A DNA stretch of 64,000 nucleotides from Methanoplanus endosymbiosus. Its GTDB lineage: Archaea; Halobacteriota; Methanomicrobia; Methanomicrobiales; Methanomicrobiaceae. The notes under the pieces were generated by a model. It was not told the origin of the DNA and did not search any database. It saw only the letters and a list, made by a program, of their open reading frames with translations. Shown piece by piece: positions 11,175 through 54,434 of this stretch. The translations under genes and the position numbers were made by a program. The stretch lies in the NCBI RefSeq assembly GCF_024662215.1, contig NZ_CP096115.1:2802935-2866934 (forward strand). The letters are read 5' to 3'. How positions within the stretch are numbered: the first letter of the stretch is position 1; every line of letters starts with the position of its first letter.

Positions 11175-11176
11175 TT

Positions 11177-11525: not shown

Positions 11526-12563
11526 TTAGAATGAGACATCAAATATATTGTCCAGATATTTATGAAGCTCATCATCATCTAAAAAGACTCCCTTATTCGA
11601 AGAATAATCCCTATTTTCTATCTTAGAAAAAGAACCTCTATCCACTGCTGTTTTTTCGGGATTTTGTGAAATATTATATTGTGGAAGGATCACATAAATC
11701 TCATCATTCTCATAAACATATCCTACTTCGTCTGTAGAAAATAGCTCTTCAGAGACTTTTTCTCCATCTCTCTTTCCAATAACTTCAATTTCAATAGCAT
11801 CAGGATCATAATTTAATTTAGATGCGAAATGATCAATCATTATATCGGCGAGATCGCAGAGACGGACAGATTTCATTTTCTTAATAAATATCTCTCTTCC
11901 CATTGCAATCTCAGCAGAATGAAGAATGAAATCAACAGCTTCCGGAATAGTCATCATAAATCTTGTCATATCCGGATTTGTAACTGTAACAGGGCCACCC
12001 ATTTTTATCTGTTCAAGAAAAATTGGAACAACTGAACCACGTGAATTCATTACATTACCAAATCTCACACATGATAGTTTTGTCCTTTTATTGCCACGGT
12101 AATGATTTGAAGAGATTACAAGTTTTTCTGCAAGCTGCTTAGTTGTTCCCATCACATTTAAAGGATTTACAGCTTTGTCAGTACTGATTAAAATAAATTT
12201 ATCAACATTATGATTAAGAGCTGCCTGAATAACATTTTGGGTTCCAATGACATTTGTTTTAATAGCCTCAAAAGGATTATATTCACATATTGGAACATGC
12301 TTCATAGCCGCTGTATGAAAAACAATATCAACATCCTCCATTGCCATATCAAGGCGATCCACATTCCCAATATCTCCATATAATGGCCTTAATATTCTCT
12401 GTGAAGGATCAACTTTGGTTGATACATTGAATAGTGCAGTTTCATCATTATCAAATACTCTTATCACTTTTGGCTCAAGTTCTGATATTTTCCTTACAAT
12501 CTCACTGCCAATACTCCCGGCTCCTCCGGTTACAAGAATAGTTTTATCCTTATAAAAATTCAT
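11526..12563 (-). CDS. legB: UDP-N-acetylglucosamine 4,6-dehydratase (LegB/PglF type)
   Basis: This 345-residue SDR protein has the NAD-binding loop TGGAGSIGSEI at its N-terminus, AAMKHVPICEYNP, and the active-site region STDKAVNPLNVMGTTK. In the last, Met replaces the usual Tyr of the YxxxK pair, as known for the WbpM/PglF group. It lacks the N-terminal membrane helices of WbpM, matching soluble LegB-like enzymes. The expected reaction is conversion of a UDP- or GDP-linked GlcNAc to the 4-keto-6-deoxy sugar, the first step toward bacillosamine and legionaminic acid. It is the last gene of a minus-strand run with aminotransferase, acetyltransferase, neuC, amidotransferase, neuB and neuA homologues, 5 bases after the aminotransferase. 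Confidence 0.85.
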   Translation of the reverse strand: MNFYKDKTILVTGGAGSIGSEIVRKISELEPKVIRVFDNDETALFNVSTKVDPSQRILRPLYGDIGNVDRLDMAMEDVDIVFHTAAMKHVPICEYNPFEAIKTNVIGTQNVIQAALNHNVDKFILISTDKAVNPLNVMGTTKQLAEKLVISSNHYRGNKRTKLSCVRFGNVMNSRGSVVPIFLEQIKMGGPVTVTNPDMTRFMMTIPEAVDFILHSAEIAMGREIFIKKMKSVRLCDLADIMIDHFASKLNYDPDAIEIEVIGKRDGEKVSEELFSTDEVGYVYENDEIYVILPQYNISQNPEKTAVDRGSFSKIENRDYSSNKGVFLDDDELHKYLDNIFDVSF

Positions 12564-12568
12564 ATTGC

Positions 12569-13693
12569 TTAATCATCCCCGTAAAACTCTTTTATTGAAG
12601 AAATCACACGATCAATATCATCTCTTGAAATACCTGGATAAAAAGGAAGACTGATAATATTCTCTGATATTCTATCCGTCACCGGTAATTCACATTTATA
12701 TTTGAGTTTTGACTGATAAAAATGTGTCTTATGAACCGGAGTAAAATATATCTTTGACATTATGCCTTTATCTTCAAGGAATTTTATCAGGGAATCACGT
12801 TCCTTTGCAATAACAGAGAATAACTGATAGACATGATAGTAATCATCAGGTAAATCAGGAATTTCTATTCCGGAGATCTGACTTAATCTATTAAGATAAT
12901 ATTCAGCATCTGATCTTCTCATACTGATAATTTTTTCTGCTTTTCTGAGTTGTGATAAACCAAGCGCAGCTGTAATATTTGACATCCGGAAATTGTAACC
13001 AAGCGTTACGTAATCCATTACAGCATTGGTGGAGAAGTAATCGGCAGTCTCAAGGCGCCCGTGAGAGCGGATAAGCTTCATCTTCTCGTAAAGATCACGG
13101 GAATCTGTAACAATAGCGCCTCCTTCTCCGGTGGTCAGAACTTTATTCTGGCAAAAGCTCAGCATTGCAGAGTCACCAAATGTTCCCACTTTTTTATCAC
13201 CTATCGCAGCACCGAATGCCTCTGCTGCATCCTCAATTAAGATCAGATTGTTATCATCAGCTATTTCTCTTAATTCTCGAATAAGACATGGACATCCACC
13301 ATAATGAACTGGCATTATGGCTTTGGTTTTTGGACTAATCTTCTCAACTACATCTTCAGGATCAAGTCCAAATGTTTTCTCCTCAATATCTGCAAAAATT
13401 GGTTTAGCTCCGACAAACTGCGGTGAATTAGCGGTTGAGATAAAAGTAAAAGAGGGAACAATTACTTCATCATCTTTGCCAATGCCGTGTGCAATAAGGG
13501 CAGCATGTGTTGCTGAGGTTCCGGAATTAAAGGTCAGACAGTACTTTGTACCTATGTAATCTGCTATTTCTTCCTCAAATTTTGAAACATTTTCACCCAC
13601 AGCCCAGTTCATCCCGGAACGAATTGCATCACTTACTGATGTAACATCATCCTCATCCCAGTACATTTTAAAAAGAGGTATTTTCCAAGTCAC
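12569..13693 (-). CDS. legC: DegT/DnrJ/EryC1 aminotransferase (LegC type)
   Basis: The 374-residue PLP enzyme has the family landmarks: FNSGTSATHAAL near the N-terminus, ILIEDAAEAFGA, and the lysine segment SFCQNKVLTTGEGGA where the K should bind PLP. It would transfer an amino group from glutamate to C4 of the 4-keto-6-deoxy sugar made by the neighbouring dehydratase. Its start overlaps the stop of the acetyltransferase upstream by 4 bases (ATGA), so the two are likely translated together. Function is inferred from family and context; related enzymes use other keto-sugars. Confidence 0.85.
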   Translation of the reverse strand: MTWKIPLFKMYWDEDDVTSVSDAIRSGMNWAVGENVSKFEEEIADYIGTKYCLTFNSGTSATHAALIAHGIGKDDEVIVPSFTFISTANSPQFVGAKPIFADIEEKTFGLDPEDVVEKISPKTKAIMPVHYGGCPCLIRELREIADDNNLILIEDAAEAFGAAIGDKKVGTFGDSAMLSFCQNKVLTTGEGGAIVTDSRDLYEKMKLIRSHGRLETADYFSTNAVMDYVTLGYNFRMSNITAALGLSQLRKAEKIISMRRSDAEYYLNRLSQISGIEIPDLPDDYYHVYQLFSVIAKERDSLIKFLEDKGIMSKIYFTPVHKTHFYQSKLKYKCELPVTDRISENIISLPFYPGISRDDIDRVISSIKEFYGDD

Positions 13694-14118
13694 TCTACAT
13701 CCTCTGTTAATTTTTTAATTTCTTCTTTATTTAATAGGCGCTGTATTTTTGCTGGAACACCAAATGCCACAGCATTATCAGGTACATCGGAGTTTACAAA
13801 ACTATGAGCACCAATAACAGAGTTTTCACCAACTGTTATCCCTGGCATAATAGTACTATGTGTTCCAATCCGGCAGTTCTTTTTTAGATGAACTTCTCCT
13901 TGTTTATTATCAATTGTTGATAAGGAATATATAGAACAATGTGATCCTATCTGAACGAAATCCCCGATATTGATGCCATATTTTGCATTAATATAAGTAA
14001 ATGCTCCAATATCAGTCCCATACCCTAAGATTAAGTTATCTACATTCTGGACAACCCAGTTATATTTTGTTGGAATTCCATCTTTTATTTCCGGATGATT
14101 CCAGTTTTTAAATCTCAT
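13690..14118 (-). CDS. hexapeptide-repeat sugar N-acetyltransferase
   Basis: The C-terminal 100 residues form a left-handed beta-helix of hexapeptide repeats (IGAFTYINAKYGINIGDF, IGTHSTIMPGITVGENSVIG) ending in VAFGVPAKIQRLL, the usual tail of isoleucine-patch acyltransferases. It probably acetylates the 4-amino group made by the aminotransferase downstream. I chose the ATG at 14118, giving 142 residues. The frame stays open upstream to 14262, but that part overlaps the end of the neuC homologue and looks like read-through, so a start between the two is not excluded. No strong ribosome-binding site marks the chosen start. Confidence 0.75.
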   Translation of the reverse strand: MRFKNWNHPEIKDGIPTKYNWVVQNVDNLILGYGTDIGAFTYINAKYGINIGDFVQIGSHCSIYSLSTIDNKQGEVHLKKNCRIGTHSTIMPGITVGENSVIGAHSFVNSDVPDNAVAFGVPAKIQRLLNKEEIKKLTEDVE

Positions 14119-14167
14119 ATAATATCCATAAGTATATTTTGAATACTGGTCATTATTCTTTTTTAGT

Positions 14168-15340
14168 TTAAGGATAGGTAATATTTTTCGAGAACAAATT
14201 TGGTTCAATGTTGAGTTCTTTAAGTACATTAGAAATAATGATACTTGTATTACCTTCACCATAGGGATTTAAACAATTATTAACTTTATTCATAAATTCC
14301 TCATCATAAAGACATTTTTCGATGGACTTAAGTATGTCTTCTTTAGAGTAATTTACATTTATTACATTTTCAGATGATTCTCGACCTTCCTGTCGATGAC
14401 CAATATTTATTACGGGTATTTTAAAAGCTGAAGATTCTATAATACCACTACTTGAATTGCCGATCATTATATCTGCAATTTTCATGACATTGAGATAATC
14501 TTTATGGGGAAGGTTTTTAAAAATTTTAATCTTTTCTGGATATTTATAACTATACCCTTCAATGGCATTAATTATTTGTTTACTGCCCGGATCAACATTA
14601 GGATATATCAATACAATCTGAAAATTAAAATCTATTATTGAATCAAGTACAATATCTATTTCTTTAGCAGCAGATTCTGGCGATGTACTTATTGGATGAA
14701 GAACAAATAACATAATTCCTAAGTTATTATCAAGATCTAATTTTTCACATAAATCATCTTTACTCAGGAAATCTGTTGATTTAATTGTTTCAATAGATGG
14801 GGAACCTACCACAAATACATTTTCAGGTATTTCTCCTAATTTAATTATTCTTTCAGCGCTTTTTTCTGTTGCTGCAAAATGAATATGGCTGATTTTTGTA
14901 ATAGCATGCCTTGTGTATTCATCAAATCCACCACGTAGTTTATCTCCACCATGTATATGGGCAAGAACTTTTCCGCTATATGATGCTGCAACTGCTGCAG
15001 CAAATATTTCATAACGATCGCCAAGAACCAGTACAATATCAGGTTTTAATATTTCAAAAACCTGAGAAAATCCAATAATTCCATGCCCAATGGAATGAGG
15101 CAAAACCTCTTTATTATCTCCTGCAATTACTACTGGAACTTTTGCATTAATTGTAAATCCATCTTGATAAATCAAATCTATTGTATTTCCATACTCGGGC
15201 AAAAGATGAGTTCCTGTGACGACCAACTGAAGAGATAAGTCTGTGTCCTGTTTAATTCTCTTAATTATAGGCTTTAGAAGTCCATATTCAGCCCTTGTAC
15301 CTGTTACCACGCATATTTTTCTCTTAGCCATAATTCCCAT
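14168..15340 (-). CDS. legG: hydrolysing UDP-GlcNAc 2-epimerase family protein (NeuC/LegG)
   Basis: This 390-residue GT-B-like enzyme starts with VVTGTRAEYGLLKPII, has HIHGGDKLRGGFDEYTRH, GSPSIETI, and the nucleotide-binding end MIGNSSSGIIESS followed by IGHRQEGRES, all standard for hydrolysing 2-epimerases. In sialic and legionaminic acid pathways this step releases the nucleotide and gives the free 2-acetamido mannose-type sugar used by NeuB. The in-frame ATG three codons downstream (MAKRK) is an alternative start. It lies between the amidotransferase and acetyltransferase genes, in step order with its neighbours. LegG is favoured over NeuC because legB- and legC-type genes are adjacent. 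Confidence 0.85.
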   Translation of the reverse strand: MGIMAKRKICVVTGTRAEYGLLKPIIKRIKQDTDLSLQLVVTGTHLLPEYGNTIDLIYQDGFTINAKVPVVIAGDNKEVLPHSIGHGIIGFSQVFEILKPDIVLVLGDRYEIFAAAVAASYSGKVLAHIHGGDKLRGGFDEYTRHAITKISHIHFAATEKSAERIIKLGEIPENVFVVGSPSIETIKSTDFLSKDDLCEKLDLDNNLGIMLFVLHPISTSPESAAKEIDIVLDSIIDFNFQIVLIYPNVDPGSKQIINAIEGYSYKYPEKIKIFKNLPHKDYLNVMKIADIMIGNSSSGIIESSAFKIPVINIGHRQEGRESSENVINVNYSKEDILKSIEKCLYDEEFMNKVNNCLNPYGEGNTSIIISNVLKELNIEPNLFSKNITYP

Positions 15341-15461
15341 CTAAATATTTTAAAAATCTTAATAATAATACAACACGATCGTAATTAAAATAATTTGACT
15401 ACTAATCAAATTAAAAAAAATGGATTCTGATTAATCATATTATATTCGCCACACAGTTATA

Positions 15462-16571
15462 TTAACCAATAGGGTTTTTTAATTTCCATTCTCCATCTGT
15501 TTTTTCAAAGATTTCTTTATTATATAGTGAATCCACAATATCCCAAAATTCTTTATGTGAATATCCTGTGAAATCCAAGAAATCCTGAAGTGCAAGACTA
15601 TCCAGATTATGGTCATGTATTTTAACCAATTCTATAGCTTCTTCTCTACTAATAAAACCATATCTAATAAATCTGGAAGCATAATCTGTAGCAGTTGCAT
15701 GACCAAATTTTGGGTATTTTAACCAAGGGTGTATCATATATGCTCTACTATCAACCTGATCAAAATTTTCTATGTGGTGTTCACGAATCCACTCATGAGT
15801 TAAATCCTTAAATCCTCTTTTTTTTGCAAAAAGATAATTGTTGTAACTATTCCAGTCAACAAAATAACTTAAATATATAGAATCCAAGTTTAATGCATCA
15901 ATTTCCTTTTTTCCCGGAAAAACGCAAAGACTAAGATCTTTCATAGATATATTATCATCTATCAGCTCATCCCAGGATATTTCGGATGCAACACCATTAT
16001 ATATCTGCTCATTAGCAGAGTAGGATTCTTCTTTTTGATATCCACCATATTCATAGCTTATATTCTCACCATAGACAACCAGTGGAATGTTAAACTTAAT
16101 TGCCATGTGTATTGGATATGTGTAAATTAGTCTGTCAATATACCATGTTGGTTTACCATATTTTTCAAAAGTTTTTCTCATCAATAATTTCTGAACTTTT
16201 ATATTTGGCTTCAGGCTAATAATGTCACAGCCAAATTCTTCTGAAATATTTCTAATGTTATGTTTTCCCGCTTCTGTCATTGGGAAATTATCCTCTACAG
16301 TTACCAGTAGAGGATTCATGCCCATCAGTTCCTTCATGACATAGACCTGATAGTGACTGTCCTTACCACCACTTACAGCAATTATGCAATCATAACTGTC
16401 CCCATACTTACCCCTGTATTTGTCACATAAAGTTTTTAATTCTTTAAATCTGGAATTCCAATCAATTTCACTTTTTTTTTCATGATTTCTACATGCAAAA
16501 CATACTCCTTCATCATCAAAACCAAGACCTGGTCTGGTGTCAGGCATAACACATTTTTTACAGTACTTCAT
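15462..16571 (-). CDS. N-acetyl sugar amidotransferase (PseA/WbpG family)
   Basis: The protein starts MKYCKKCVMPDTRPG and contains a second CxxC (CFACRNH), giving the zinc-binding pattern of this family, then a PP-loop (IIAVSGGKDSHYQ) for ATP. The ATG at 16571 follows GGGAGGAAG, better placed than the frame's upstream ATG at 16613. At 369 residues it matches PseA/WbpG/LegM-type enzymes that convert an acetamido group to acetamidino on pseudaminic- or legionaminic-type sugars, with ammonia supplied by HisH/HisF-like partners. Those partner genes are not next to it here, so the ammonia source is unknown. The gene stands between neuC- and neuB-type genes. Confidence 0.8.
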   Translation of the reverse strand: MKYCKKCVMPDTRPGLGFDDEGVCFACRNHEKKSEIDWNSRFKELKTLCDKYRGKYGDSYDCIIAVSGGKDSHYQVYVMKELMGMNPLLVTVEDNFPMTEAGKHNIRNISEEFGCDIISLKPNIKVQKLLMRKTFEKYGKPTWYIDRLIYTYPIHMAIKFNIPLVVYGENISYEYGGYQKEESYSANEQIYNGVASEISWDELIDDNISMKDLSLCVFPGKKEIDALNLDSIYLSYFVDWNSYNNYLFAKKRGFKDLTHEWIREHHIENFDQVDSRAYMIHPWLKYPKFGHATATDYASRFIRYGFISREEAIELVKIHDHNLDSLALQDFLDFTGYSHKEFWDIVDSLYNKEIFEKTDGEWKLKNPIG

Positions 16572-16635
16572 AGCAAATAACTTCCTCCCTATGATATATA
16601 ATATTTTGCACACTTGGGGTTGTAAATTTGTTTAA

Positions 16636-17673
16636 TTAGCTATCTATTTGAAACCAATTAATCTGTTCATCTCTTCTTAATGATTTATTCATTTTCTTAC
16701 CAATTATTAAATTAAAATACTTAGGAGGAATTCCGGTTCCAGGTCTTTTTGCTGTAACATCATCTTTCATTAATACAGAACCTTCATTAATATTCCTTCT
16801 GGCAACAAGACTTTTCCTTGCAACCTGAATATTATTCCTTTCAGCATCATTTGCTGCTTTTATTCCATTACCCATTGCAAGTTCAACATCTCTGACGGCT
16901 TCAACAATTGCCTTTAATTCATCCGGTTCAAGTGATGCTTTATGATCCGGACCGGGGAGATTCTTGTCAATGGTGAAATGCTTTTCAATCACTACTGCTC
17001 CAAGTGCTACAGCTGCAATTGGAATTGTTATTCCTTCGGTATGATCTGAGTATCCAACCGGAAGTTTGAATGCACACCTCATGGTTTCCATTGCAGAAAG
17101 GTTTACGCTTTCAATAGGTGCCGGATATGAAGTTGTGCAGTGAAGAAGAGTAATGTCTGTTGTTCCGGATGATTTTAAGGACTCAATTGCTTCTTCTACT
17201 TCGCCAAGTGTTGACATTCCGGTTGAAAGAATCACAGGTTTTTGCTTTTTTCCAATATGCTCAAGAAGAGGAATATTTGTAATCTCTCCGGATGGAATTT
17301 TAAAAAGAGGAACTCCTAATTTTTCCAGAAAATCTGCACTCTGATGATCAAAGGGTGTTGACAAAAAAGTTATTTCCTTTTCATCAGCATATTTTTTTAG
17401 TTCAGTAAAATCTTCATCGCTGAGTTCAAGGGCTTTGATCATCTCATATTGTGATTCTGAACTGCCTGTGTTCTCAATCTGATACTGGGCTTTTCCAGCA
17501 GTTTTACATACTACTTCTTCCGCTTTGAAAGTCTGAAACTTTACGGCATCAGCTCCGGAATCTTTTGCAGCATCAATTAATTTTTTTGCAAGGTTGATAT
17601 CGCCGTTGTGGTTAACTCCGGCTTCTGCAATTACGTAACATTGACTTTTTAAGTTATTCTTTTGTGAGTACAT
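16636..17673 (-). CDS. legI: N-acetylneuraminate/legionaminate synthase (NeuB/LegI)
   Basis: The 345-residue protein has the NeuB TIM-barrel (VIAEAGVNHNGDINLAKKL, ADAVKFQTFKAEE, FKIPSGEITNIPLL, GYSDHTEGI, IEKHFTIDK) and a C-terminal SAF/antifreeze-like domain (AKRPGTGIPPKYF). It condenses phosphoenolpyruvate with a 2-acetamido mannose-type sugar to form a nine-carbon sialic-type acid in the cytoplasm. With legB-, legC-, neuC- and neuA-type genes beside it, legionaminic acid or a derivative is more likely than plain sialic acid, but the sequence alone does not separate the substrates. Confidence 0.9.
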   Translation of the reverse strand: MYSQKNNLKSQCYVIAEAGVNHNGDINLAKKLIDAAKDSGADAVKFQTFKAEEVVCKTAGKAQYQIENTGSSESQYEMIKALELSDEDFTELKKYADEKEITFLSTPFDHQSADFLEKLGVPLFKIPSGEITNIPLLEHIGKKQKPVILSTGMSTLGEVEEAIESLKSSGTTDITLLHCTTSYPAPIESVNLSAMETMRCAFKLPVGYSDHTEGITIPIAAVALGAVVIEKHFTIDKNLPGPDHKASLEPDELKAIVEAVRDVELAMGNGIKAANDAERNNIQVARKSLVARRNINEGSVLMKDDVTAKRPGTGIPPKYFNLIIGKKMNKSLRRDEQINWFQIDS

Positions 17674-17745
17674 ATTTCCCCAAAATGTATTAATTTAATT
17701 TATAAATATATGATGAAATAATTCTATCTGAAGTTTTGTCTATTA

Positions 17746-18444
17746 TTAACCATAAATGTCCTTATTTTCAATTATAATTTCTGCTAACTTTAAATCTAGG
17801 GCTTCATCAATATCTATACTGTCCTCTCTGCTCATTACATATGGTAATATATCTTTACAATAAAATGTCTTTTTATTTACTATTGTGCTCACTCTTGAAA
17901 TATAAATTGCCCCATTTGGAATGTAAGTTTCCGGCAAATCCTGACTTCTCATAAATATGAATCTTTCATCCATTAACGGGACCAAATAGTCATTTTCAAC
18001 TTTGAAATTCCATTGGGGAGGGTGTTCCGGATTTGTAACACTAACTAATGAACTTCCTTTACCTGAAAGGAAGGTTTCCAATGCCTCTTTAACGTGTATT
18101 TCATTTCTTAGAGGGGATGTTGGCTGCAAAAGGATAATTATATCATCAGGATTTAGTTTATATTCATTAATAAAATGAAGAACCGAGTCAATAGTAGTAC
18201 TTGTGTCCTGTGCCAGCTCCGGTGGTCTTCTGAGAACTTCAGCATCTAAATCGTTAGACAATGACTCGATTTGCAAATCATCAGTTGATACGATTACCTT
18301 ATCAAATATTGAAGATTTTAATGCTACCTCTATTGTATACTGTATTAGAGGTTTATCGGCAATTAATTGCAGGTTTTTGTTTGGTATTCTTTTGCTACCA
18401 CCACGTGCTGGAATGAATGCGTAGATCTTGTCAATAGTTTTCAT
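17746..18444 (-). CDS. legF: CMP-sialate/legionaminate cytidylyltransferase (NeuA/LegF)
   Basis: The 232-residue protein begins with FIPARGGSKRIPNKNL, the CTP-binding signature of acylneuraminate cytidylyltransferases, and has VIVSTDD, LLQPTSPLR and PNGAIYI in the expected order. It activates the nine-carbon acid made by the adjacent NeuB homologue as a CMP-sugar for transfer to the cell-surface glycan. It is the first intact gene of the leg-type run, followed at 72 bases by neuB. Upstream lies the decayed ABC-transporter remnant. Confidence 0.88.
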   Translation of the reverse strand: MKTIDKIYAFIPARGGSKRIPNKNLQLIADKPLIQYTIEVALKSSIFDKVIVSTDDLQIESLSNDLDAEVLRRPPELAQDTSTTIDSVLHFINEYKLNPDDIIILLQPTSPLRNEIHVKEALETFLSGKGSSLVSVTNPEHPPQWNFKVENDYLVPLMDERFIFMRSQDLPETYIPNGAIYISRVSTIVNKKTFYCKDILPYVMSREDSIDIDEALDLKLAEIIIENKDIYG

Positions 18445-18503: not shown

Positions 18504-19046
18504 TTAAAACTCAACAAGAGCATTATTATCAATATTTTTCTGTTTTGTATAGAGGTTATAGTATTCTCCTTTTTTCTTGAGCAATTCTTCATGAGTTCCA
18601 GTATCTGAGATGCTTCCTTTCTTAAGGACATGAATTACATCAGCATTCAGAACTGTTGAGAGACGGTGTGCAATTATAATTACTGTCATATCTTTTGAGA
18701 GACGGTCAACAGATTCCATTACCCTTTGCTCTGAAACGTTATCGAGTGCACTTGTAGCCTCATCAAGAAGAAGTATTTCGGGTTTTCTTAGCATAATTTT
18801 GCTATTGCAACCCTTTGTCTTTGACCTCCAGAAAGTTTCATGCCCTGATCACCAATAATGGTTTCATAGCCTTCAGGCATTGTTATAATAAAATTATGTG
18901 CATCAGCAAGTTTTGCTGCTTCAATTATATCCTCTTCTGAACATTCAAGACCAAATTTGGTATTATTTTTAATGGTATCATGATAAACAAATGTCTCTTG
19001 TCCAAAATAATGCTTTATTATTATCCTACGAAGGCAATCATATTGT
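18504..19046 (-). pseudogene. 3' remnant of an ABC exporter gene
   Basis: This is a decayed second copy of the nucleotide-binding end of the ABC exporter at 27299-29107. From the right it starts inside the domain (YDCLR..., then [12 protein letters not shown]) and keeps [18 protein letters not shown]. One base missing near 18795 (GCAAAATTATG instead of GCAAAAATTATG) breaks the frame just before [18 protein letters not shown]. The C-terminal tail after the last helix differs from the intact copy. The membrane half and Walker A are missing. It forms the left direct repeat around the KDO gene block. Confidence 0.88.
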
Positions 19047-19078: not shown

Positions 19079-20515
19079 CTATTTAATGTCTTCCCAGTTA
19101 TCTAATGCTTCACAGATTTCATTTGCAATTACTTCATTAATATGTGGTGTTTGATTAAAATATTTTGCATATTCTGCCTGAAGTTTATTAACAACCTTCT
19201 GCCGGTCAGTCATTATATCGTCTACATGTTTTTTTAGTTGGGCATAATCACTTGCGCCGAGAACAAGTCCTAGGTATCGTTTGATTTTTACTGGATCTCC
19301 AGCTTGATCACGTAAAGCTGTGTTATTATCATGTGCTTCTAATCCCCGTAAATCAAGTATTTCGATAACGGGAACACCCATTTTTACCATATCTAATGTC
19401 ACCGCTGAAATAAAAACAACAGCAAAGGCACAATTTTTCGCGAGTGCAAAAGGATGGGCATTGGAATAGGCCCATGTTGATCCATAATTATCTAAACCAA
19501 ATACTCGCTCAAATGTTCCATCACGCTTTTCTTTAGGATGTAATTTTACAATAATGGGTAGATTATATTCCATTGCAATTCGTTGAATCGCTTCAATAGC
19601 TTTAATTTTTCTATCTTTTGGATGATAATCTGTTGTGCCAGGTCTCGAAAAAAAAGAGATGTAACCTTTCTCAAAGGGGAGATCTCTATTAGATTCCTGC
19701 GATAGCAGAAAGTCAATCCATTTGATATCATGACGAGGTACGCCCAAAGAACGTATCGATCCCTCATTGAGGCCATATTTTGATTGAAAGTAGCTTTTTT
19801 GATAATTACTATTGGTATATACTACTACATTATCAACATGATTACAGCTTACACTTTGATTAGTGTTAATATCAGTAATATTTGTAATATTTTCAGGAGT
19901 AATGCCTTCAAAATCTATACCGTGGCTTATTGAAAATATTGGTTTGGAGGACAGTGTAGACATTAGTTGACTATTATATTCTTTTGTTGATTCATATATA
20001 TCAAACATCAGAGCAGTTTTTCGGTCATTAAAATAGTTGAGGGAGAAAATGTAATCCTTATATAAATATTTAATCAAAAAATCTAAAAGTTTTTGGATGT
20101 TGTTTGCAAAGTCAAAGAATTGAATTTTGTGCAATAAAATTTTTAAAGGTAAAGATAAAATATAGTGCCGATGATTTAACTTCTTTGCCTCTTCAAAATT
20201 CTTTGAAGTAGACATTATACTAGCGTGAGAACAAAATACAATGCGATCAAATAATTTAGAAGCTATTTTAATCAGAGTACTATCTAGATCTAGTTCATCG
20301 ACAGTACGACTTTTTGGCATATAAAATATAAATTCAGAGTCAGGTTTTTTTTGTTTGAGATGATAGATTACAGAAATCCAACTATCAATAATTGCAAGAC
20401 TGGGAGAACAACAAAAAAAGAAACATTCATTGGATCTGTTATTTACTTGCTTTTCGAAGGAATCACTAATTATACTAGTACCTTCATACTTTTGTTTATC
20501 ATTTAAATGGTTCAT
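19079..20515 (-). CDS. putative GT-B glycosyltransferase of the KDO block
   Basis: About 478 residues, with no close family recognised. The C-terminal half has features of GT-B transferases of the CDP-glycerol/capsule type: GVPRHDIKW, an IVKLHPKEKRDGT segment, and a Ser/Thr-rich acceptor loop (AVVFISAVTLDMVKMGVPVIE). No membrane segment is evident. The reading frame extends upstream to a GTG at 20563, but I prefer the ATG at 20515 because a TATA-like CCTATAAAATG sequence lies about 30 bases before it, suggesting a nearly leaderless transcript. It is next to kdsA, kdsB, kdsC and kdsD, making it a candidate KDO transferase. That role is inference from position only. Confidence 0.55.
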   Translation of the reverse strand: MNHLNDKQKYEGTSIISDSFEKQVNNRSNECFFFCCSPSLAIIDSWISVIYHLKQKKPDSEFIFYMPKSRTVDELDLDSTLIKIASKLFDRIVFCSHASIMSTSKNFEEAKKLNHRHYILSLPLKILLHKIQFFDFANNIQKLLDFLIKYLYKDYIFSLNYFNDRKTALMFDIYESTKEYNSQLMSTLSSKPIFSISHGIDFEGITPENITNITDINTNQSVSCNHVDNVVVYTNSNYQKSYFQSKYGLNEGSIRSLGVPRHDIKWIDFLLSQESNRDLPFEKGYISFFSRPGTTDYHPKDRKIKAIEAIQRIAMEYNLPIIVKLHPKEKRDGTFERVFGLDNYGSTWAYSNAHPFALAKNCAFAVVFISAVTLDMVKMGVPVIEILDLRGLEAHDNNTALRDQAGDPVKIKRYLGLVLGASDYAQLKKHVDDIMTDRQKVVNKLQAEYAKYFNQTPHINEVIANEICEALDNWEDIK

Positions 20516-20701
20516 AATATATGCTCGGGCATAACATGTGTGGCATTTTATAGGTGGGGACACCTATATGTCCGCTGATGACTGATAATCCGTAATTATC
20601 AGTTACCTTAAGCAGGAAGGACTTATTTCCTACTTATATGTCACTGAAAAATCCAACTTTGACCATTGGAGAAACTCCTTGATTGGAAGAAAATATGTTG
20701 C

Positions 20702-22057
20702 TCACCACCCACCCATAATTCCACAACATCTTGTACAGGCACAAAAACAATATTTATTTTTCTTCAAAATCTCGCGGAAAATATTTGCATCATTCCCATT
20801 AAAAATATCATTTATATCCTTTTCAAGCATATTCCCAATGACATAATTGTAGCACCTTGTATGGAAAACAACATCACCATTTGTTTTAATTGAAACCTGA
20901 TTATACGGGAAAAAGCATTTATCTAAACCCTCTAAAGGTTGACCAGATAAATTATAATAATTACTCAGTTCAATTGGTTCAGTGTATGGAGGTCTAAAAC
21001 GTATAGAACTAATATAATTCAATTTTATTCTCTTAATTTTTTTTATTTGTTGAGACAATACATAAAAATCTATATCGGTTGCTATACTTTCCTCACCAAT
21101 TGATGACTGAGTCTGTTTCAACCTATAATCTTCAACTGTTGAGTTGTGATTATCTGCCATTTTCTTGCTAACAAAATACAAATGCTGAAATCTAACCTCT
21201 ACATTTAGTTTTTCATTTTCTATCCCTTTTATAAGATCATATAAACCACCATAATTTAAATTGGATATACAACAGTTTATAACAACTTTCATATTCGGTT
21301 GAATTTCATGTAATCGTTTAATACCATTAATTGCCTTTCGATATATTCCTTTTCGTCCCCTAATCTTATCATGAATGTGTTCTGTTCCATCAATACTTAC
21401 CATCACATAATCAACATTATTTTCTATCAATTCTTTGGCTTTCCTTTCCAACAATATTCCATTTGTGATTACAGCAACAGAATGGCCTTTTGAACTAATT
21501 AAGCCCACAATTTTTCCAATATCTCTATGAATTAATGGTTCTACCATCCCTAAAGAAAATTTCATTTTATTTTCTTTTAAAAGGGGAGACTCAAGTAACT
21601 TTTCTATGGTAGAAATCGGAATTTCATTTTCTGTATCAACTCGAAGTTTATCAATACCCTTTTTACTGGCTGTTCCGATATCACACATCACACAGTTAGC
21701 ATTGCATATATTTGTTGCATAAATTCTTACCAGTTCCAAATGTGGTATTATCTGTATGTTATTCTCTTCTATCCAACCCAATTCAACAATACTATAGAAT
21801 TTATTATAATAATCATTCAATATGATAATTGATACATCATTTTTCATATCAAAAACATTTTCAAGGGTTATGGTGAAATCATAATCCAATATCTTTCTAT
21901 CAAGTGAATTAGATTCGCTTTCAAATTGGGATACATAATTGCAAATAAATATATTTTTATCTGTAATCAGCTCTAAGAGTGCATAATAATATTCAAGACT
22001 CTTATTATCAAAACCCCAAATAACTATGTTTTTTTTATCTGTTTTAGGTATAATCAT
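20702..22057 (-). CDS. radical SAM protein with C-terminal SPASM-like domain
   Basis: The 451-residue protein has a N-terminal region of about 100 residues without a clear match, then the radical SAM cluster motif CNANCVMC (Cx3Cx2C) and VMVSIDGTEHIHDKIRG typical of AdoMet radical barrels. The C-terminus has further cysteines (CFFPYNQV, then CFCACTRCCG) suggesting an auxiliary iron-sulfur SPASM-type domain. Proteins of this kind modify peptides, sugars or other metabolites; several occur in surface glycan loci. It lies between the putative transferase and kdsA on the same strand, so it may modify the KDO-type sugar or its carrier. The substrate cannot be predicted. Confidence 0.8.
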   Translation of the reverse strand: MIIPKTDKKNIVIWGFDNKSLEYYYALLELITDKNIFICNYVSQFESESNSLDRKILDYDFTITLENVFDMKNDVSIIILNDYYNKFYSIVELGWIEENNIQIIPHLELVRIYATNICNANCVMCDIGTASKKGIDKLRVDTENEIPISTIEKLLESPLLKENKMKFSLGMVEPLIHRDIGKIVGLISSKGHSVAVITNGILLERKAKELIENNVDYVMVSIDGTEHIHDKIRGRKGIYRKAINGIKRLHEIQPNMKVVINCCISNLNYGGLYDLIKGIENEKLNVEVRFQHLYFVSKKMADNHNSTVEDYRLKQTQSSIGEESIATDIDFYVLSQQIKKIKRIKLNYISSIRFRPPYTEPIELSNYYNLSGQPLEGLDKCFFPYNQVSIKTNGDVVFHTRCYNYVIGNMLEKDINDIFNGNDANIFREILKKNKYCFCACTRCCGIMGGW

Positions 22058-22115: not shown

Positions 22116-22913
22116 TTAGATTTGTTCTTCCCATCTTTTTATCTCATGAATAAATGTTTCAAATTCATTAAGTGGAATCATATTGGGCCCGTCTGATAAA
22201 GCAGTAGATGGATCAGGATGCACTTCAAAGAAAAGCCCAGAAACACCAAGAGCAAGTGCCATTTTTGTAAAAGGCATAGCATATGTTCGATTACCCCCTG
22301 TAGTCGATGATGTTGAAGCAGGAGTTTGAAGAGAATGAGTTATGTCCATAATTACAGGGTAATTAAAATCTAATAGATCCACGATATTTCTTGGATCTAC
22401 AACAAGGTTGTCGGATCCAAATATATTTCCGCGCTCGGTTAATAGTACTTTATCGTTGTCATTAGCAATAATTTTCTCAATAGGGAATTGCATAGCCTTT
22501 GCCGATAGAAATTGAGCTTTTTTAATATTCACAATTTTACCAGTTTTTGCAGCCTCTACAAGTAGATCTGTTTGTCTGCATAAGAAGGCAGGGATTTGAA
22601 TAATATCACAGACCTCAGCAACACGTGATGCCTGCCATGCTTCATGAATATCTGTGAGAATCGGTAGACCTATAATATTCTTTACATTGCCTAATATACG
22701 CAATCCCTCATCCAGTCCGGGACCGCGATAGGATGAAAGAGATGTCCTATTGGCTTTATCAAATGATGCCTTGAAGATAATAGGTATATTATACTTAACT
22801 GCAAGTTCTTTTAGACGCATTGCAGTGTTCAATACTAAATCTTCACTCTCAATAACACATGGACCAGCAATAATAAACCGTTCCGAAGTGATTTTTTTAT
22901 AAAGATCAATCAT
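22116..22913 (-). CDS. kdsA: KDO-8-phosphate synthase
   Basis: At 265 residues this matches KdsA. It has FIIAGPCVIESEDL near the start, FKASFDKANRTSLSSYRGPG, TDIHEAWQ, IQIPAFLCRQTDL, and MDITHSLQTP with GGNR. The Cys in GPCVIES is the mark of the metal-dependent class; the metal-independent class has Asn there. It condenses phosphoenolpyruvate with arabinose-5-phosphate to KDO-8-phosphate. The start overlaps the upstream kdsC-CBS gene by 8 bases. The full pathway (kdsD, kdsA, kdsC, kdsB) is present in one run, which is unusual for a genome that otherwise looks archaeal. Confidence 0.92.
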   Translation of the reverse strand: MIDLYKKITSERFIIAGPCVIESEDLVLNTAMRLKELAVKYNIPIIFKASFDKANRTSLSSYRGPGLDEGLRILGNVKNIIGLPILTDIHEAWQASRVAEVCDIIQIPAFLCRQTDLLVEAAKTGKIVNIKKAQFLSAKAMQFPIEKIIANDNDKVLLTERGNIFGSDNLVVDPRNIVDLLDFNYPVIMDITHSLQTPASTSSTTGGNRTYAMPFTKMALALGVSGLFFEVHPDPSTALSDGPNMIPLNEFETFIHEIKRWEEQI

Positions 22914-23952
22914 AATTAATTTTTCCTCGTATCAGGTTAACAATCCCTATCGCAATATTATCCCTATTAACAATTGGATAGATATTTTTTCCTGTTTTTC
23001 CTGCTGTATCGATGACTTTTTGTATTGTATCATTTGGGGAAAATACAATTGGGAAACTATTCATGATATCTGCAGCATTCAATTTATATATCTTTTGTTT
23101 TTTGTATTGTAAATATTGATGAATATCATCATCAGCAACAATACCCAGAAGTTCAGATTCATTATTAATAATCAAAACTAAACCCTTGTGCCCCTCCGAT
23201 TTTTTTTTTAATACCTGCGTAATATCATCTTTAGAATCAACATGGGGGAATATTGTCTGCATGATGTCCACTACTGTCTGTAGCTTTGATGGCTCCAACC
23301 ACTGTGCTTCGGCATCCAGTTGTAGTTTTGTTTTTTTTATGTCCGATCGAATTAATTTTTTTAATGAGTATTCTTTCTTGGAGTATTCTTCAGAAAAGTT
23401 ATTATTATTCTCTCTGGAAGGTTCAACTCGCTGATTCTGTAAGAATTCATTGGCGATCTCTGCAACCACACCTTTTCCACCCGAAGCTTTGCAGATGTAA
23501 TCGACCTTTGATTTTATTGATTTGGCGGCATCAGCTGGGGCTATTGAAAATCCACAAGCCTGAAGTAGTTCAAGGTCGTTCAAATCATCTCCCATATAGA
23601 TTACTTCTGAAAGTAATATATCATAGTCAGAACAGATCTCTTTAGCACATGCTAGTTTATCACTTATATTCTGATGAATTCCAGTAATACCCAGTTCATT
23701 ACATCGAATTGATAAAGATTCAGATTTTCGACCAGAGATTACAAAAACATAAAACCCAGCTCTAATAATCTCTTTAATCGCAAGACCATCTTTTACATTG
23801 AACTTTTTATATGTCTCGCCACCTGATCCATAGTATAGCGAACCATCTGTTAATACGCCATCACAATCAAGAAAGATTGCCCGGATATGTTGTAATTTAG
23901 ATGAATTATTTGTAATAGTCATGTTTGAAAAACTGCCCTCAAAGAGTGTCAT
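22906..23952 (-). CDS. kdsC: KDO-8-phosphate phosphatase fused to a CBS domain pair
   Basis: Residues about 20-170 are a HAD phosphatase of the KdsC type (FLDCDGVLTDGSLYY, VISGRKSESL, GDDLNDLELL, CKASGGKGVV). A linker of about 30 charged residues follows. Residues about 205-348 form two CBS motifs (VVDIMQTIFPHV..., then AADIMNSFPIVFSPND...GIVNLIRG). KdsC is normally about 180 residues without CBS domains, whereas KdsD usually carries the CBS pair; here both do. The CBS pair could bind a nucleotide and regulate flux. An ATG 10 codons in is an alternative start. It overlaps kdsA and lies 34 bases after kdsB. Confidence 0.88.
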   Translation of the reverse strand: MTLFEGSFSNMTITNNSSKLQHIRAIFLDCDGVLTDGSLYYGSGGETYKKFNVKDGLAIKEIIRAGFYVFVISGRKSESLSIRCNELGITGIHQNISDKLACAKEICSDYDILLSEVIYMGDDLNDLELLQACGFSIAPADAAKSIKSKVDYICKASGGKGVVAEIANEFLQNQRVEPSRENNNNFSEEYSKKEYSLKKLIRSDIKKTKLQLDAEAQWLEPSKLQTVVDIMQTIFPHVDSKDDITQVLKKKSEGHKGLVLIINNESELLGIVADDDIHQYLQYKKQKIYKLNAADIMNSFPIVFSPNDTIQKVIDTAGKTGKNIYPIVNRDNIAIGIVNLIRGKINYD

Positions 23953-23986
23953 AATTATAAAATTATTTGTAAGTAATATTCCTTAA

Positions 23987-24721
23987 TTATAAATTCTCAT
24001 CATTTTCATATAGTTTTTTTGCTTTTGCAAGATCTTTATATGTATTTATTTCAAAAATGTTATCTTTAGTAGTGGTCACTATAATCTTATAACCATTTTC
24101 TAAAGCCCTTAACTGCTCAAGGCTTTCACATTTTTCAAGATCCGTAACAGACATTTTCGAATATTTTAAAAGGAAATCTCTTTGAAAAGCATATAAGCCG
24201 AGATGGCAGTAAACTGGAGCGTTTCCTTTTTTTCTATAATATGGAATTGAAGCCCGTGAAAAATATAAAGCCTCACTATTTTTATTAAGAAGTACTTTAA
24301 CAACATTCGGGTTATTAAAATCATCATTTTTCAATTGGCAGGCAACAGTTGTCATCTCAGGGTTTGTTTTATCTAAGTAAGGTTTTAATAAGGCGCAAAG
24401 CAAATCTTTTGTGATAAAGGGCTGATCTCCCTGGATATTAGCAATAACATCAACATCACTATACAATTCAGCTACTTCAGCAACTCGATCAGTCCCCGAA
24501 ATATGATCTGACCGTGTCATTATTGCCAGTCCATTAAAAGAGATGACACAGTCAATAATTCGCTGATCATCGGTAGCAACGATTACTTTATCGAAATAAT
24601 TTGAAGCCAGGGCCGCTTCATAAACCCATTGAATCATTGGTTTCTTTTGGATTGTTTCAAGTGGTTTTCCTGGCAGTCTGGTGGACTCATACCGAGCAGG
24701 AATCACAGCAATTATTTTCAT
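23987..24721 (-). CDS. kdsB: CMP-KDO synthetase
   Basis: The 244-residue enzyme has the KdsB signature IPARYESTRLPGKPL at the N-terminus, VATDDQRI, SGTDRVAEVA and ANIQGDQPFI in order. These are the CTP- and KDO-binding loops of this family. It activates KDO with CTP for transfer. Its start codon overlaps the stop of kdsD by 4 bases, indicating translational coupling. Length and motifs are complete, and no frame damage is seen. Confidence 0.92.
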   Translation of the reverse strand: MKIIAVIPARYESTRLPGKPLETIQKKPMIQWVYEAALASNYFDKVIVATDDQRIIDCVISFNGLAIMTRSDHISGTDRVAEVAELYSDVDVIANIQGDQPFITKDLLCALLKPYLDKTNPEMTTVACQLKNDDFNNPNVVKVLLNKNSEALYFSRASIPYYRKKGNAPVYCHLGLYAFQRDFLLKYSKMSVTDLEKCESLEQLRALENGYKIIVTTTKDNIFEINTYKDLAKAKKLYENDENL

Positions 24722-25707
24722 TGAAATACTCCCAAGTGCTTATGAATATCAATAATGCGGATCATTCCAACACAAAAGTTATTCTGATCAATGACAGGAA
24801 AAACAGAAAAAGATACACTTAAATTATTTTGTAACTTAAGAACATCGTAACATAACATATCGTCATATACAATTGTTGGATCTGATGTCATCATATCCTG
24901 ACTAGTTAATGTCGTGAGCTGATCCGGTTTCGTTTTTTTGAGGATTCTTCTGATATCTCCATCAGTAATGATACCAATTAAAAAGCCCTGATCATCAACT
25001 ACATTTACTGCGCCAGTGCTTTTTTTGTTCATACCCTCAATAACACTAATCCAGTCATCTTCGAGGGTTACCAATGGGTTATTGTTCCCACCATGCATAA
25101 TATCTCTAACTTTTAAGGTAAGTCTTTTACCAAGGCTACCCGCAGGGTGGTTAAGTGCAAATGTGTGGGGTGTGACCTTTTTTAATGTCATGAGGATCAC
25201 AGCAATCGCATCACCGATTGCAAGAGAGACTGTGGTGCTTGTAGTGGGTACCAAATTATATTGGTCAGCTTCCTTTTCAAAGAAATAGTTAAGACATGCA
25301 TTGGATTTTTGTGAAAGTATTGAGTTTTTGTTTCCTACAATCGCTATTACTGGAACATTTCTATGATTGAGGTATGGTAAAAATTTTATAATTTCTTCAG
25401 TTTCTCCGCTATTACTGATAATTATAGCAACATCATCCTTTGTTGCTATACCAAAGTCTCCATGTAAGGCTTCTGAGGGATGGAGATAGATAGAAACACA
25501 ACCTATACTGTTAAGTGTGGCAGATATTTTTTTGGCAATAATACCTGATTTTCCAATCCCTATGAGAACAAACTTTCCCTTACAACAATCCAGTATATTA
25601 ATTGTAGCTCTTATTTGAGAAGTGTCAATATATTCTGCAACATTTTTTATTGCGTTACTTTCCTCATACAACACACTTTTGAAAGTTTCAACAAAATCTT
25701 CGTTCAT
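24718..25707 (-). CDS. kdsD: arabinose-5-phosphate isomerase
   Basis: The 329-residue protein has an N-terminal SIS domain (FVLIGIGKSGIIAKKISATLNS, SNSGETEEI, LVPTTSTTVSLAIGDA, HPAGSLGKRL) and a C-terminal CBS pair (VRDIMHGG..., TSQDMMTSDPTIV...), the usual KdsD/GutQ architecture. It interconverts ribulose-5-phosphate and arabinose-5-phosphate and so feeds KdsA. It lies 5 bases after the gene encoding the ParB-like/nucleotidyltransferase-like protein and overlaps kdsB, supporting one transcript for the KDO genes. Confidence 0.9.
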   Translation of the reverse strand: MNEDFVETFKSVLYEESNAIKNVAEYIDTSQIRATINILDCCKGKFVLIGIGKSGIIAKKISATLNSIGCVSIYLHPSEALHGDFGIATKDDVAIIISNSGETEEIIKFLPYLNHRNVPVIAIVGNKNSILSQKSNACLNYFFEKEADQYNLVPTTSTTVSLAIGDAIAVILMTLKKVTPHTFALNHPAGSLGKRLTLKVRDIMHGGNNNPLVTLEDDWISVIEGMNKKSTGAVNVVDDQGFLIGIITDGDIRRILKKTKPDQLTTLTSQDMMTSDPTIVYDDMLCYDVLKLQNNLSVSFSVFPVIDQNNFCVGMIRIIDIHKHLGVFQ

Positions 25708-25712
25708 TTTGA

Positions 25713-27131
25713 TTAAACACCTCTATCTATTTTATTTTTCCTGAAAAACTCATCAATCATATAAACATCCTCCACATCTTTATCTCTCTGATGGTTGTTT
25801 TTCCTCTCTCTAATTATTTTTATGTTCGCAAATTTCAAACCCCTGAATAAAAAATGATTTTTATTATTGGTAATTATCTCATCATCTGAAATAGGTAATG
25901 ATGGATTGTTATATTCATGATAGCCTTTATGAACGATATCAACATTCTCTGATAGAGATCTCGATTTTTCATCAAAGAGTTTCTCTCGAATTGTGCTATG
26001 TAAAATAAAATCAATATCTGTTGCTTCTCTTATACCAACTATTTCAAGTGGTCCACTACCCACAATGCAACAATCGTTTTTGGAAATTCCGTAATGTTTT
26101 AAAACATTTTCATATTCACACAACCAATTAAATAATTCCTTGCGGTAATGTGTTGCTTTTCTTAGATTAAGATGTGCAAGATTGTTCTGTGATAAAAAAA
26201 TACTGGTGATGTGTTGTGTATGTTCGCTGTTATCTGAAGTATGTAAAGTTATGAATTTTTCCTTCTCGATTATCGAATTCCAATTATCTCTAATTTTTTC
26301 TTTTTGTTTAATTACCTGAAGACACATGTCCCGCTGATTCATTTGTATGTATTCGGGTTCGTCAATATAGAAAAAAATTAATCTTAAATCCGTGTTATAT
26401 TCTTTTAAAAGATTAATTTTATTAGTTATCTTTTTGGGTATATCAACTCCAAACTCCTGAGAATAAATATCGTATACAAGTTCATCAAAGTTAGAATTAT
26501 TAATCTTAAAATCTTTTACGTAAATAATCTTATAGCTTTTCGTAATTATTTCCTGTATATCGTCCCAATATTCTTTTAGTGGTGCCCACAGTATACAGGC
26601 AAAAACATTTTCTTTTTTAATTTTGCAGAATGTTTCTACAATGATGTTAATCTCCTCTTGTTCAAAATCATTTTCCAGAAACCATTTATAATCCCACTTG
26701 CGACCTAGACGGGGTTCATAGAGAACAATTGGCTCAATATTAAAATATATGCAGCAACTTGCACGATGAGCTCCATCCAGAATGATACCATTTTGGGATG
26801 AAACAGGTATAAAATACTCTTTTTGGAAACCACTTTTCTTAAATGATTCAATCATCAACAGAAAATCATCGAGATATCTGTCAATCCCTTCCTTGGAATG
26901 GGATTGATAAGGTTTTCCATCAATGTATTGATAGATGTATTGTTTGCCACCGGTTCTTTTTAAGATGTGGTTGATATATAATTTGTTAAAAAAGTCATTA
27001 TCTTGTCTACTTTCTAAAGCCTGTATATATAGATATTTAACAATAATATCCAACCTTTCAGGAACGAGTAAATCCTTAGGGTTAATTTTTTTTACATTGT
27101 TATGTGTACTCATTTTTTGCCTCAGAATCAA
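25713..27131 (-). CDS. uncharacterised protein with ParB-like and nucleotidyltransferase-like segments
   Basis: The 472-residue protein is not assignable to a named family by eye. The N-terminal third has ISSQNG-like spacing ending in ILDGAHRASCCIYFNI, which resembles the ParB/Srx fold loop seen in proteins that recognise or phosphorylate small molecules. The C-terminal third has CIVGSGPLEIVGIREATDIDFIL, like the GS...DxD core of nucleotidyltransferases, then a short helical tail. An ATG six codons in (MSTHNN) may be the real start. It is the first gene of the KDO run, 5 bases before kdsD, so it may add or transfer a substituent in that pathway. Confidence 0.5.
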   Translation of the reverse strand: MILRQKMSTHNNVKKINPKDLLVPERLDIIVKYLYIQALESRQDNDFFNKLYINHILKRTGGKQYIYQYIDGKPYQSHSKEGIDRYLDDFLLMIESFKKSGFQKEYFIPVSSQNGIILDGAHRASCCIYFNIEPIVLYEPRLGRKWDYKWFLENDFEQEEINIIVETFCKIKKENVFACILWAPLKEYWDDIQEIITKSYKIIYVKDFKINNSNFDELVYDIYSQEFGVDIPKKITNKINLLKEYNTDLRLIFFYIDEPEYIQMNQRDMCLQVIKQKEKIRDNWNSIIEKEKFITLHTSDNSEHTQHITSIFLSQNNLAHLNLRKATHYRKELFNWLCEYENVLKHYGISKNDCCIVGSGPLEIVGIREATDIDFILHSTIREKLFDEKSRSLSENVDIVHKGYHEYNNPSLPISDDEIITNNKNHFLFRGLKFANIKIIRERKNNHQRDKDVEDVYMIDEFFRKNKIDRGV

Positions 27132-27298: not shown

Positions 27299-29107
27299 TT
27301 AATTATGTTGCTTTTGCTTTGTGTAGAGGTTGTAGTATTCTCCCTTTGCCTCGAGTAATTCTTTATGTGTTCCGCTTTCTGATATCTTTCCTTTCTTAAG
27401 GACATGAATCACATCAGCATTCTGCACTGTTGATAAGCGGTGTGCAATAATAATTACTGTCATATCTTTTGAAAGGCGGTCAACAGATTCCATTACTCTC
27501 TGCTCGGATACATTGTCAAGTGCACTTGTAGCCTCATCCAGCAGAAGTATTTCGGGTTTCCTTAACATAATTCTTGCGATTGCAACCCTCTGTCTCTGTC
27601 CGCCGGAAAGCTTCATACCCTGATCGCCGATAATGGTCTCATAACCATCAGGTGTTGCCATAATGAATTCATGGGCATCAGCAAGTTTTGCTGCTTCAGT
27701 TATATCTTCATCTGAGCATTCAAGACCAAACCTGATATTTTCTTTAATGGTATCATGATAAACAAATGTCTCCTGTCCGAGATAACCAAGTGTTCTTAAG
27801 TAATCTGATTTGCTGAAATCATAGATATTTACTCCGTCAACAAGTACACCTCCTGAAGTTGGCTTATAGAGTAATGCAAGGAGATTTGCAATAGTTGTCT
27901 TCCCGGCTCCGGAGTTTCCGACAATTGCAACTTTTGAGTTTTTCTTTATTTCAAAGGATAAGTTTTGGATTGTATTGTTCAGGCCTTCTTTATACCTGAA
28001 ATTTACATCTCTGAATGTAATTGCCTGATTAAATATGAATCTCTTCTTTTCCCGCTTTTTATCTGCAACCTTCTCGGAACTTAATTCTGAATCCTCATAA
28101 TCTTTAAGAAGATCATATACAGATTCTATTGCCGGCAACTGCTGCATAATGGCACCATATTGAGTCTGACATCCGTTTAATGCCGGAATCATTCTGTAAA
28201 GGGCAAGGAGATAAGTTCCGAATATTCCAATGTACGGCAGAAAATTCCCGTCTGTAAAAATATAAAGCCCTATTGCCCCCAGAGCTATTATCATGAATAA
28301 AATGAAATTATTTATAATTCCGGGAATTCTCCGGATAAACACAACTTTGGTGTAACTTTTAAGTAACTTTTCTACAGCAACATCATATTTCTTTGCCCAG
28401 AATTTTATTGAATCTGTAATGAATATAGATTTAATTCCGGATATAAATTCATTGTATATCACAGATTTGACTTTTGAAACATCATTTAGTATTCTTCCAT
28501 GGTTGTATATCCTTGTAAAAATTATTTTTTTGATGAAAAATACAAACATAACTCCAAAAATAAGTATAAATATACTTATTTCAAATGACAGGATAAATAT
28601 AAATAATAGATAGAAGGTACAAAGCAATAGATTCTGAATAAAAATTATAAAATTATTTACTGCACTTCCAGTTTGATTTACTGCTATCTGCCCAATGTAT
28701 AATAAATCTCCCTGTTTATGTCCGGCAAAATATTCATATGGCTGACTCTTTAATATTTTGAATACTAAGTGATCTGTTGTATTCCTGACTGATGCAAATG
28801 TCAGGCTAGCAAAATATGCAATAATAATCTCAAATCCTGTCATAAATAGTGTGGTCACTGCAAGCAGAATTCCTGATGCTATAAAAGGATTAACATCCAA
28901 AGGGAATATTAACTGGAATATTGTATCGAATATTGACAAGTTACTGTTTACATCAAGTCCATAATTAACGATTGGATAAATGAGTGCTACTCTGAATACA
29001 TCCAATGCACTAAAGGCCATCAGACTAATTAGATAGACAGCCATCAGTTTTTTATGCGGCCTGAAAAAATAGAAAAGCATCTGAAATGAGTTTTTAAGAT
29101 CGGCCAC
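27299..29107 (-). CDS. ABC exporter (lipid-linked glycan flippase type)
   Basis: This 602-residue half-transporter has an N-terminal membrane domain with about six helices (for example LMAVYLISLMAFSALDVF and LLLCTFYLLFIFILSF) and a C-terminal ATPase domain. The ATPase has Walker A (VGNSGAGKTT), the signature [11 protein letters not shown], and Walker B (EILLLDEATSALD). The layout matches MsbA/PglK-type exporters that flip lipids or lipid-linked oligosaccharides. Its position between nucleotide-sugar genes and the KDO block fits export of the glycan built here. Its last 500 or so bases have a decayed second copy at 18504-19046. Confidence 0.88.
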   Translation of the reverse strand: MADLKNSFQMLFYFFRPHKKLMAVYLISLMAFSALDVFRVALIYPIVNYGLDVNSNLSIFDTIFQLIFPLDVNPFIASGILLAVTTLFMTGFEIIIAYFASLTFASVRNTTDHLVFKILKSQPYEYFAGHKQGDLLYIGQIAVNQTGSAVNNFIIFIQNLLLCTFYLLFIFILSFEISIFILIFGVMFVFFIKKIIFTRIYNHGRILNDVSKVKSVIYNEFISGIKSIFITDSIKFWAKKYDVAVEKLLKSYTKVVFIRRIPGIINNFILFMIIALGAIGLYIFTDGNFLPYIGIFGTYLLALYRMIPALNGCQTQYGAIMQQLPAIESVYDLLKDYEDSELSSEKVADKKREKKRFIFNQAITFRDVNFRYKEGLNNTIQNLSFEIKKNSKVAIVGNSGAGKTTIANLLALLYKPTSGGVLVDGVNIYDFSKSDYLRTLGYLGQETFVYHDTIKENIRFGLECSDEDITEAAKLADAHEFIMATPDGYETIIGDQGMKLSGGQRQRVAIARIMLRKPEILLLDEATSALDNVSEQRVMESVDRLSKDMTVIIIAHRLSTVQNADVIHVLKKGKISESGTHKELLEAKGEYYNLYTKQKQHN

Positions 29108-29301: not shown

Positions 29302-29682
29302 TCATCTTTTATTTTTATTAACCTCTTTTAAATAATTGAGCAGATGGGTTTTATCTGTAAGTTGTTTCTCTTTCCACCATATTTGTTCTTTTGATGTAGT
29401 TATAAATGTCTTGTGTAAATGCGTAATGTTTGGTTGTACCAATATTTGATGGTGCATCTTAAGTTCGGGAGAATCATCAAAATAGTCCTCAATCGGACGT
29501 TTGCTCCTGCCGGTGATTAAGATTAAGTCCTCAATTCCGGAGTTAATTGCCTCTTCAACAACATAGTGAATAATCGGTCTGTCAATAAGAGGGAGCATCT
29601 CTTTTGGCATAGCCTTTGTTGCCGGCAGAAATCTTGTTCCAAGACCTGCAACAGGTATTACTGCCTTTTTAACTTCACTCAA
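29302..29682 (-). pseudogene. galU: truncated UTP-glucose-1-phosphate uridylyltransferase
   Basis: The first 75 residues are a clear GalU N-terminus ([40 protein letters not shown], split here into its known blocks [14 protein letters not shown] and [12 protein letters not shown]) up to [12 protein letters not shown]. The following 50 residues do not resemble GalU, and the rest of the roughly 290-residue enzyme, including the sugar-binding region, is missing. A deletion joining unrelated sequence is the simplest reading. The remnant lies in the gap between the dehydrogenase and exporter genes. Confidence 0.8.
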
Positions 29683-54433: not shown

Positions 54434-54434
54434 A

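Follow-up and report, generated by a model that had tools for sequence, protein, structure and literature searches.

In the methanogen Methanoplanus endosymbiosus, four adjoining genes probably constitute a complete, bacterially derived CMP-Kdo pathway, most likely feeding a surface glycan. Kdo is regarded as a marker sugar for Gram-negative bacteria, plants, and algae. The pathway is one of ordinary chemistry in an unusual host, with a history of lateral acquisition and an unusual KdsC-CBS protein. As predicted from the four gene products, KdsD would convert ribulose-5-P to D-arabinose-5-P, KdsA would combine D-arabinose-5-P with PEP to give Kdo-8-P, KdsC would remove the phosphate from Kdo-8-P, and KdsB would activate the resulting Kdo to CMP-Kdo. 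The CMP-Kdo would then pass into a surface glycan, either S-layer or membrane-lipid-linked. The genes lie in a stretch of 64,000 nucleotides that was analysed as a whole (the window).

Identity of the kds enzymes

All four kds open reading frames are intact and run head to tail on the minus strand in the order kdsD-kdsB-kdsC-kdsA, at the positions where a prior reading of the DNA letters (the sequence-only reading) had placed them. They are listed here with the gene that follows kdsA:

24718-25707, minus strand: kdsD/KpsF, D-arabinose-5-phosphate isomerase, SIS plus two CBS domains (TIGR00393, PDB matches)
23987-24721, minus strand: kdsB, CMP-Kdo synthetase (TIGR00466, PDB matches)
22906-23952, minus strand: kdsC, a KdsC-CBS-CBS fusion (TIGR01670, PF00571 twice)
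22116-22913, minus strand: kdsA, Kdo-8-phosphate synthase of the metal-dependent (Cys) class (TIGR01362, NF003543, residues, PDB matches)
20702-22057, minus strand: radical SAM/SPASM protein (PF04055, PF13186), 58 nt downstream of kdsA

The genes had been described as overlapping, which is true of kdsD/kdsB (4 nt) and kdsC/kdsA (8 nt) and not of kdsB and kdsC, which are separated by 34 nt. Every one of the four products passes the cut-off of a curated Kdo-family model, KdsC and KdsD at subfamily level. KdsA scores 356 bits with TIGR01362 (cut-off 314) and 359 with NF003543 (cut-off 242), and KdsB scores 201 with TIGR00466 (cut-off 155) as against merely 57 with the PseF model (cut-off 206). 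KdsD, with domains PF01380 and two copies of PF00571, reaches 242 with TIGR00393 (cut-off 204) and is below the cut-off of the equivalog NF008141 (230 vs 505). Similarly, KdsC passes the YrbI/KdsC subfamily model TIGR01670 (158, cut-off 107) and is below that of the strict KdsC equivalog NF007019 (137 vs 208); its score with the KDN-9-P phosphatase model is lower than the latter (121, cut-off 180). The best PDB matches of the four products are KDO8P synthase, KdsB, KdsC, and KpsF/KdsD-type isomerases. The sequence-only reading had named other 2-keto-3-deoxy sugar activities as the competing assignment; the curated models favour Kdo, and their scores disfavour a DAHP synthase, KDN- or Neu-type identity for these enzymes.

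Catalytic residues of KdsA were inspected by aligning it with one DAHP-type sequence and with KdsA proteins from E. coli, other bacteria, and archaea. The cysteine of the metal-dependent class, already pointed out in the sequence-only reading, is seen in IAGPCVIES, where the E. coli counterpart reads GGMNVLES. The KANR motif sets KdsA apart from DAHP synthase; KANR(S/T)S is present here as KANRTS, and the conserved His, Glu, and Asp are kept. The earlier description of signature residues as intact holds for these positions. KdsA deviates at some positions that are usually conserved, among them in the aligned relatives, with FGSDNL for FGYNNL and THSLQTP for THSVQLP.

What had been taken for a plain KdsC does have the KdsC domain and passes the subfamily cut-off, and is in fact a 348-aa fusion of a HAD/KdsC portion (residues ~20-171) with two CBS domains (PF00571, residues ~222-340). 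Between this CBS pair and the one in the adjacent KdsD, identity is 23%. A KdsC match was obtained in 47 of the 51 comparison genomes that carry kdsA, and in none of the 47 did the match reach into the CBS part. None of 38 matching plasmid records covered 80% of the protein, and no relatives of the fusion were found in viral contigs. Because CBS pairs commonly sense adenine nucleotides, it is reasonable to infer from the domain architecture that the pair gives KdsC a regulatory role.

A different end product was also considered, namely a Kdo-derived or Kdo-like acid, for instance Kdo modified by the radical SAM enzyme, instead of unmodified Kdo. The position of the radical SAM/SPASM gene after kdsA would suit such a modification, as would a second gene of this kind beside kdsC in another archaeon (G238), whose product aligns with that of the host (27% over 166 aa); the failure of KdsC to reach its strict equivalog cut-off points the same way. 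However, KdsA and KdsB pass their Kdo equivalog cut-offs, and glycan clusters also contain radical SAM proteins that serve unrelated functions. We therefore hold a modified product to be unlikely and retain CMP-Kdo as the predicted one.

A cassette between two copies of an ABC exporter gene

The kds genes belong to a surface-polysaccharide island, rich in mobile elements, that has the following other features:

27299-29107, minus strand: MsbA/PglK-type ABC exporter of a methanomicrobial family
25713-27131, minus strand: uncharacterised protein with a C-terminus that by eye resembles a nucleotidyltransferase; kdsD follows after 5 nt
19079-20563, minus strand: candidate glycosyltransferase with HP and Ser/Thr motifs
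18538-19010, minus strand: ABC exporter relic, a decayed, frameshifted 3' copy
11526-18444, minus strand: nonulosonate (sialic-acid-like) biosynthesis block, adjoining the cassette
464-1885, minus strand: TIGR04396 surface carbohydrate biosynthesis protein, second candidate transferase (315 bits, cut-off 125)

A cassette holding the gene at 25713, kdsDBCA, the radical SAM gene, and the candidate transferase gene is situated between the ABC gene and the ABC relic. The exporter is 55-57% identical to copies in M. limicola (G001), the sister species, and in two further genomes (G003, G013), and to a second copy in the host; the relic retains 84-86% nucleotide identity to the intact gene (27312-27785). 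The presence of methanomicrobial ABC copies on both sides shows that the cassette is integrated in an archaeal chromosome, and the duplicated flank would fit an arrival by insertion or recombination at the ABC gene. The protein encoded at 25713-27131 has a relative in a polysaccharide cluster of Ilyobacter polytropus (26% over its length), and no match to it was found in viral contigs. The adjoining nonulosonate block encodes NeuB, PseF/NeuA-like, NeuC, and WbuX proteins, an aminotransferase, an acetyltransferase, and a dehydratase; NeuB, NeuC, and WbuX are above cut-off (TIGR03569, TIGR03568, and TIGR03573), and the other members are assigned by best match only.

Several further elements were seen in the window. 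A truncated GalU-like fragment (UTP-glucose-1-phosphate uridylyltransferase, 126 aa) is found at 29302-29682. Group II intron matches span 5296-7635 and 9723-11409, with reverse transcriptase-like open reading frames at 5778-7277 and 9723-11174, and two copies of a transposase-like 481-aa open reading frame, at 8082-9527 and 39738-41183, read identically. Three related open reading frames (35804-36172, 54411-55739, and 62731-63231) have in common an acylphosphatase-like start, recognised by eye (RDITGYVKN/QN).

Flanks of this sort, which carry group II introns and transposase-like genes besides the ABC relic and the GalU fragment, would fit, together with the lack of the block in the sister species, a silent or decaying acquisition that makes nothing. 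We nonetheless judge this improbable, as none of the four kds genes is disrupted and their catalytic residues are retained. Moreover, an intact KdsA with ~59% identity to its nearest listed relatives implies either a long history of purifying selection or a donor that is missing from the sample.

Distribution and origin of the kds genes

Within the order Methanomicrobiales, KdsA is above cut-off in just 2 of 232 genomes, those of the host and of a metagenome-assembled genome (MAG G418), and no match was obtained in M. limicola or in the others of the first 60 relatives. The idea that other Methanomicrobiales might carry the same block, which the sequence-only reading had raised, is not borne out, and the block is rejected as a shared trait of the order. 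In the phylum sample, 6 of 393 genomes have KdsA, and in the haloarchaeal order the figure is 5 of 392 (~1%; G112, G156, G202, G728, and G762).

In trees built with a bacterial set of at least 80 loci, which was found with the window protein as query, did not include the host genome, and may not hold the nearest relatives, the window KdsA is nested in a Bacteroidota-dominated group, beside Saprospiraceae. Identity to its nearest relatives among the matches listed is 59% at best. A single clade of all archaeal KdsA that takes in the window protein is rejected (AU p=0.0002), as is a clade of the window KdsA with those of G238, G297, and MAG G418 (AU p=0.0009); a clade of the archaeal proteins leaving out that of the window is not rejected (AU p=0.44). 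A single archaeal origin including the window KdsA is rejected on this basis. Since it nests in Bacteroidota and the AU test rejects a common archaeal clade, the window KdsA is evidently an independent lateral acquisition from bacteria. The AU results also point to at least two separate entries of kds genes into the archaeal phylum of the host. KdsB groups with Selenomonadaceae (support 95/91; 29 sequences, long branches), an affinity that hints at a mosaic origin of the cassette. The comparison with bacterial sets that had been suggested for KdsA and KdsB places KdsA with one bacterial group and hints at another for KdsB.

An archaeal host without LpxC and WaaA

The host genome is a single contig of 3,163,021 bases, 99.1% complete with 0.18% contamination. 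McrA is above its curated cut-off in this same contig, and the host is for this reason a methanogenic archaeon, of the genus Methanoplanus; the sequence-only reading had put an archaeal host as a condition, which is hereby settled. A bacterial window or a chimeric assembly, which the bacterial grouping of KdsA and KdsB might seem to favour, has a negligible probability and is contradicted by these genome figures, by mcrA, and by the methanomicrobial ABC copies at the cassette flanks.

LpxC (PF03331) and WaaA (PF04413) had no match in the host genome, and both matched in the controls E. coli, Caulobacter, and Bacteroides; the capsule Kdo transferases KpsC/KpsS (PF05159) had none in the host genome either. 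With LpxC and WaaA absent, an LPS role for the block is rejected, and the absence of all these genes makes the entry of CMP-Kdo into LPS or into a capsule linker of the KpsC/S type unlikely. A surface glycan, the destination already proposed in the sequence-only reading, is a sensible role given the absence of the tested LPS genes and the surface-glycan neighbours. The envelope of M. limicola has an S-layer glycoprotein (PMC4149034).

Candidate transferases and exporter

Transfer of Kdo would be carried out by one of the two candidate glycosyltransferases of the island, encoded at 19079-20563 and 464-1885, and the Kdo glycan would be flipped by the MsbA/PglK-type ABC exporter. The former gene had been read as 19079-20515, its actual span being 19079-20563, and had been proposed to attach Kdo. 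This proposal could not be confirmed: no relative of the protein was found in Pfam, NCBIfam, PDB, plasmids, or viral contigs, and a search of 393 genomes gave nothing beyond one 16-bit, stop-interrupted match. Its single-sequence AF2 model has a pLDDT of 33. A weak single-sequence hhalign match (E 0.003, probability 11%) links its C-terminal half to a G297 protein whose gene precedes kdsA; the HP and Ser/Thr motifs of the two proteins coincide in this alignment, and the G297 protein matches Glyphos_transf and Capsule_synth. The 19079-20563 protein is on these grounds a weak candidate for an enzyme using CMP-Kdo.

Implications

The open papers searched gave no chemical evidence for archaeal Kdo, and none of the titles and abstracts listed described a Kdo pathway in archaea. 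Complete archaeal kds clusters that arose independently at least twice would add a third domain to the range of Kdo, and they suggest that this "bacterial" sugar may be exposed on the surface of some archaea. They also counsel caution in reading metagenomic Kdo or kds genes as Gram-negative LPS and are a possible source of new CMP-Kdo transferases. M. endosymbiosus is a ciliate endosymbiont, and we speculate that its surface sugars may bear on the symbiosis. We tentatively offer, as possible though doubtful in its entirety, a picture in which a methanogen, probably ciliate-associated, shows both Kdo and nonulosonate by means of a CMP-Kdo transferase of a new type, an undescribed CBS-regulated KdsC controls the flux, and the trait has been gained at least twice.

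Comparison with known kds systems

Three further archaea offer kds genes next to glycosyltransferases (G238, G297, and MAG G418). In G238 the order is kdsB-kdsA-kdsD-kdsC, followed by the radical SAM/SPASM gene, in which it resembles the host. The KdsC proteins of G238 and G297 differ in being single-domain, and the KdsA of all three belongs to a clade apart from that of the window (AU p=0.0009). The kdsA-kdsD-kdsC cluster of G297 (L092:3239-6099) has a NeuA-like cytidylyltransferase at the place expected for kdsB.

The genomes G112, G156, and G202 appear to be haloarchaeal, judging by their acidic proteins and grouping. Their clusters resemble that of the host in having complete kds sets amid archaeal surface-glycan genes, and in G156 and G202 an MsbA-like ABC exporter adjoins the cluster. 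In contrast, their KdsC is fused to KdsB (one open reading frame, 397-461 aa) and not to CBS domains, their gene order is kdsCB-kdsA-kdsD, and their KdsA is of another clade.

With the capsule/LPS kds genes of the E. coli type, the host block shares the same four enzyme families, as shown by the family and subfamily models, and the same reaction order. Unlike these, the genes of the host form one cassette, and the archaeal genome that carries it lacks LpxC, WaaA, and KpsC/S. Finally, KdsA is of the Asn class in E. coli and of the Cys class in the host, whose KdsC has in addition a CBS pair.
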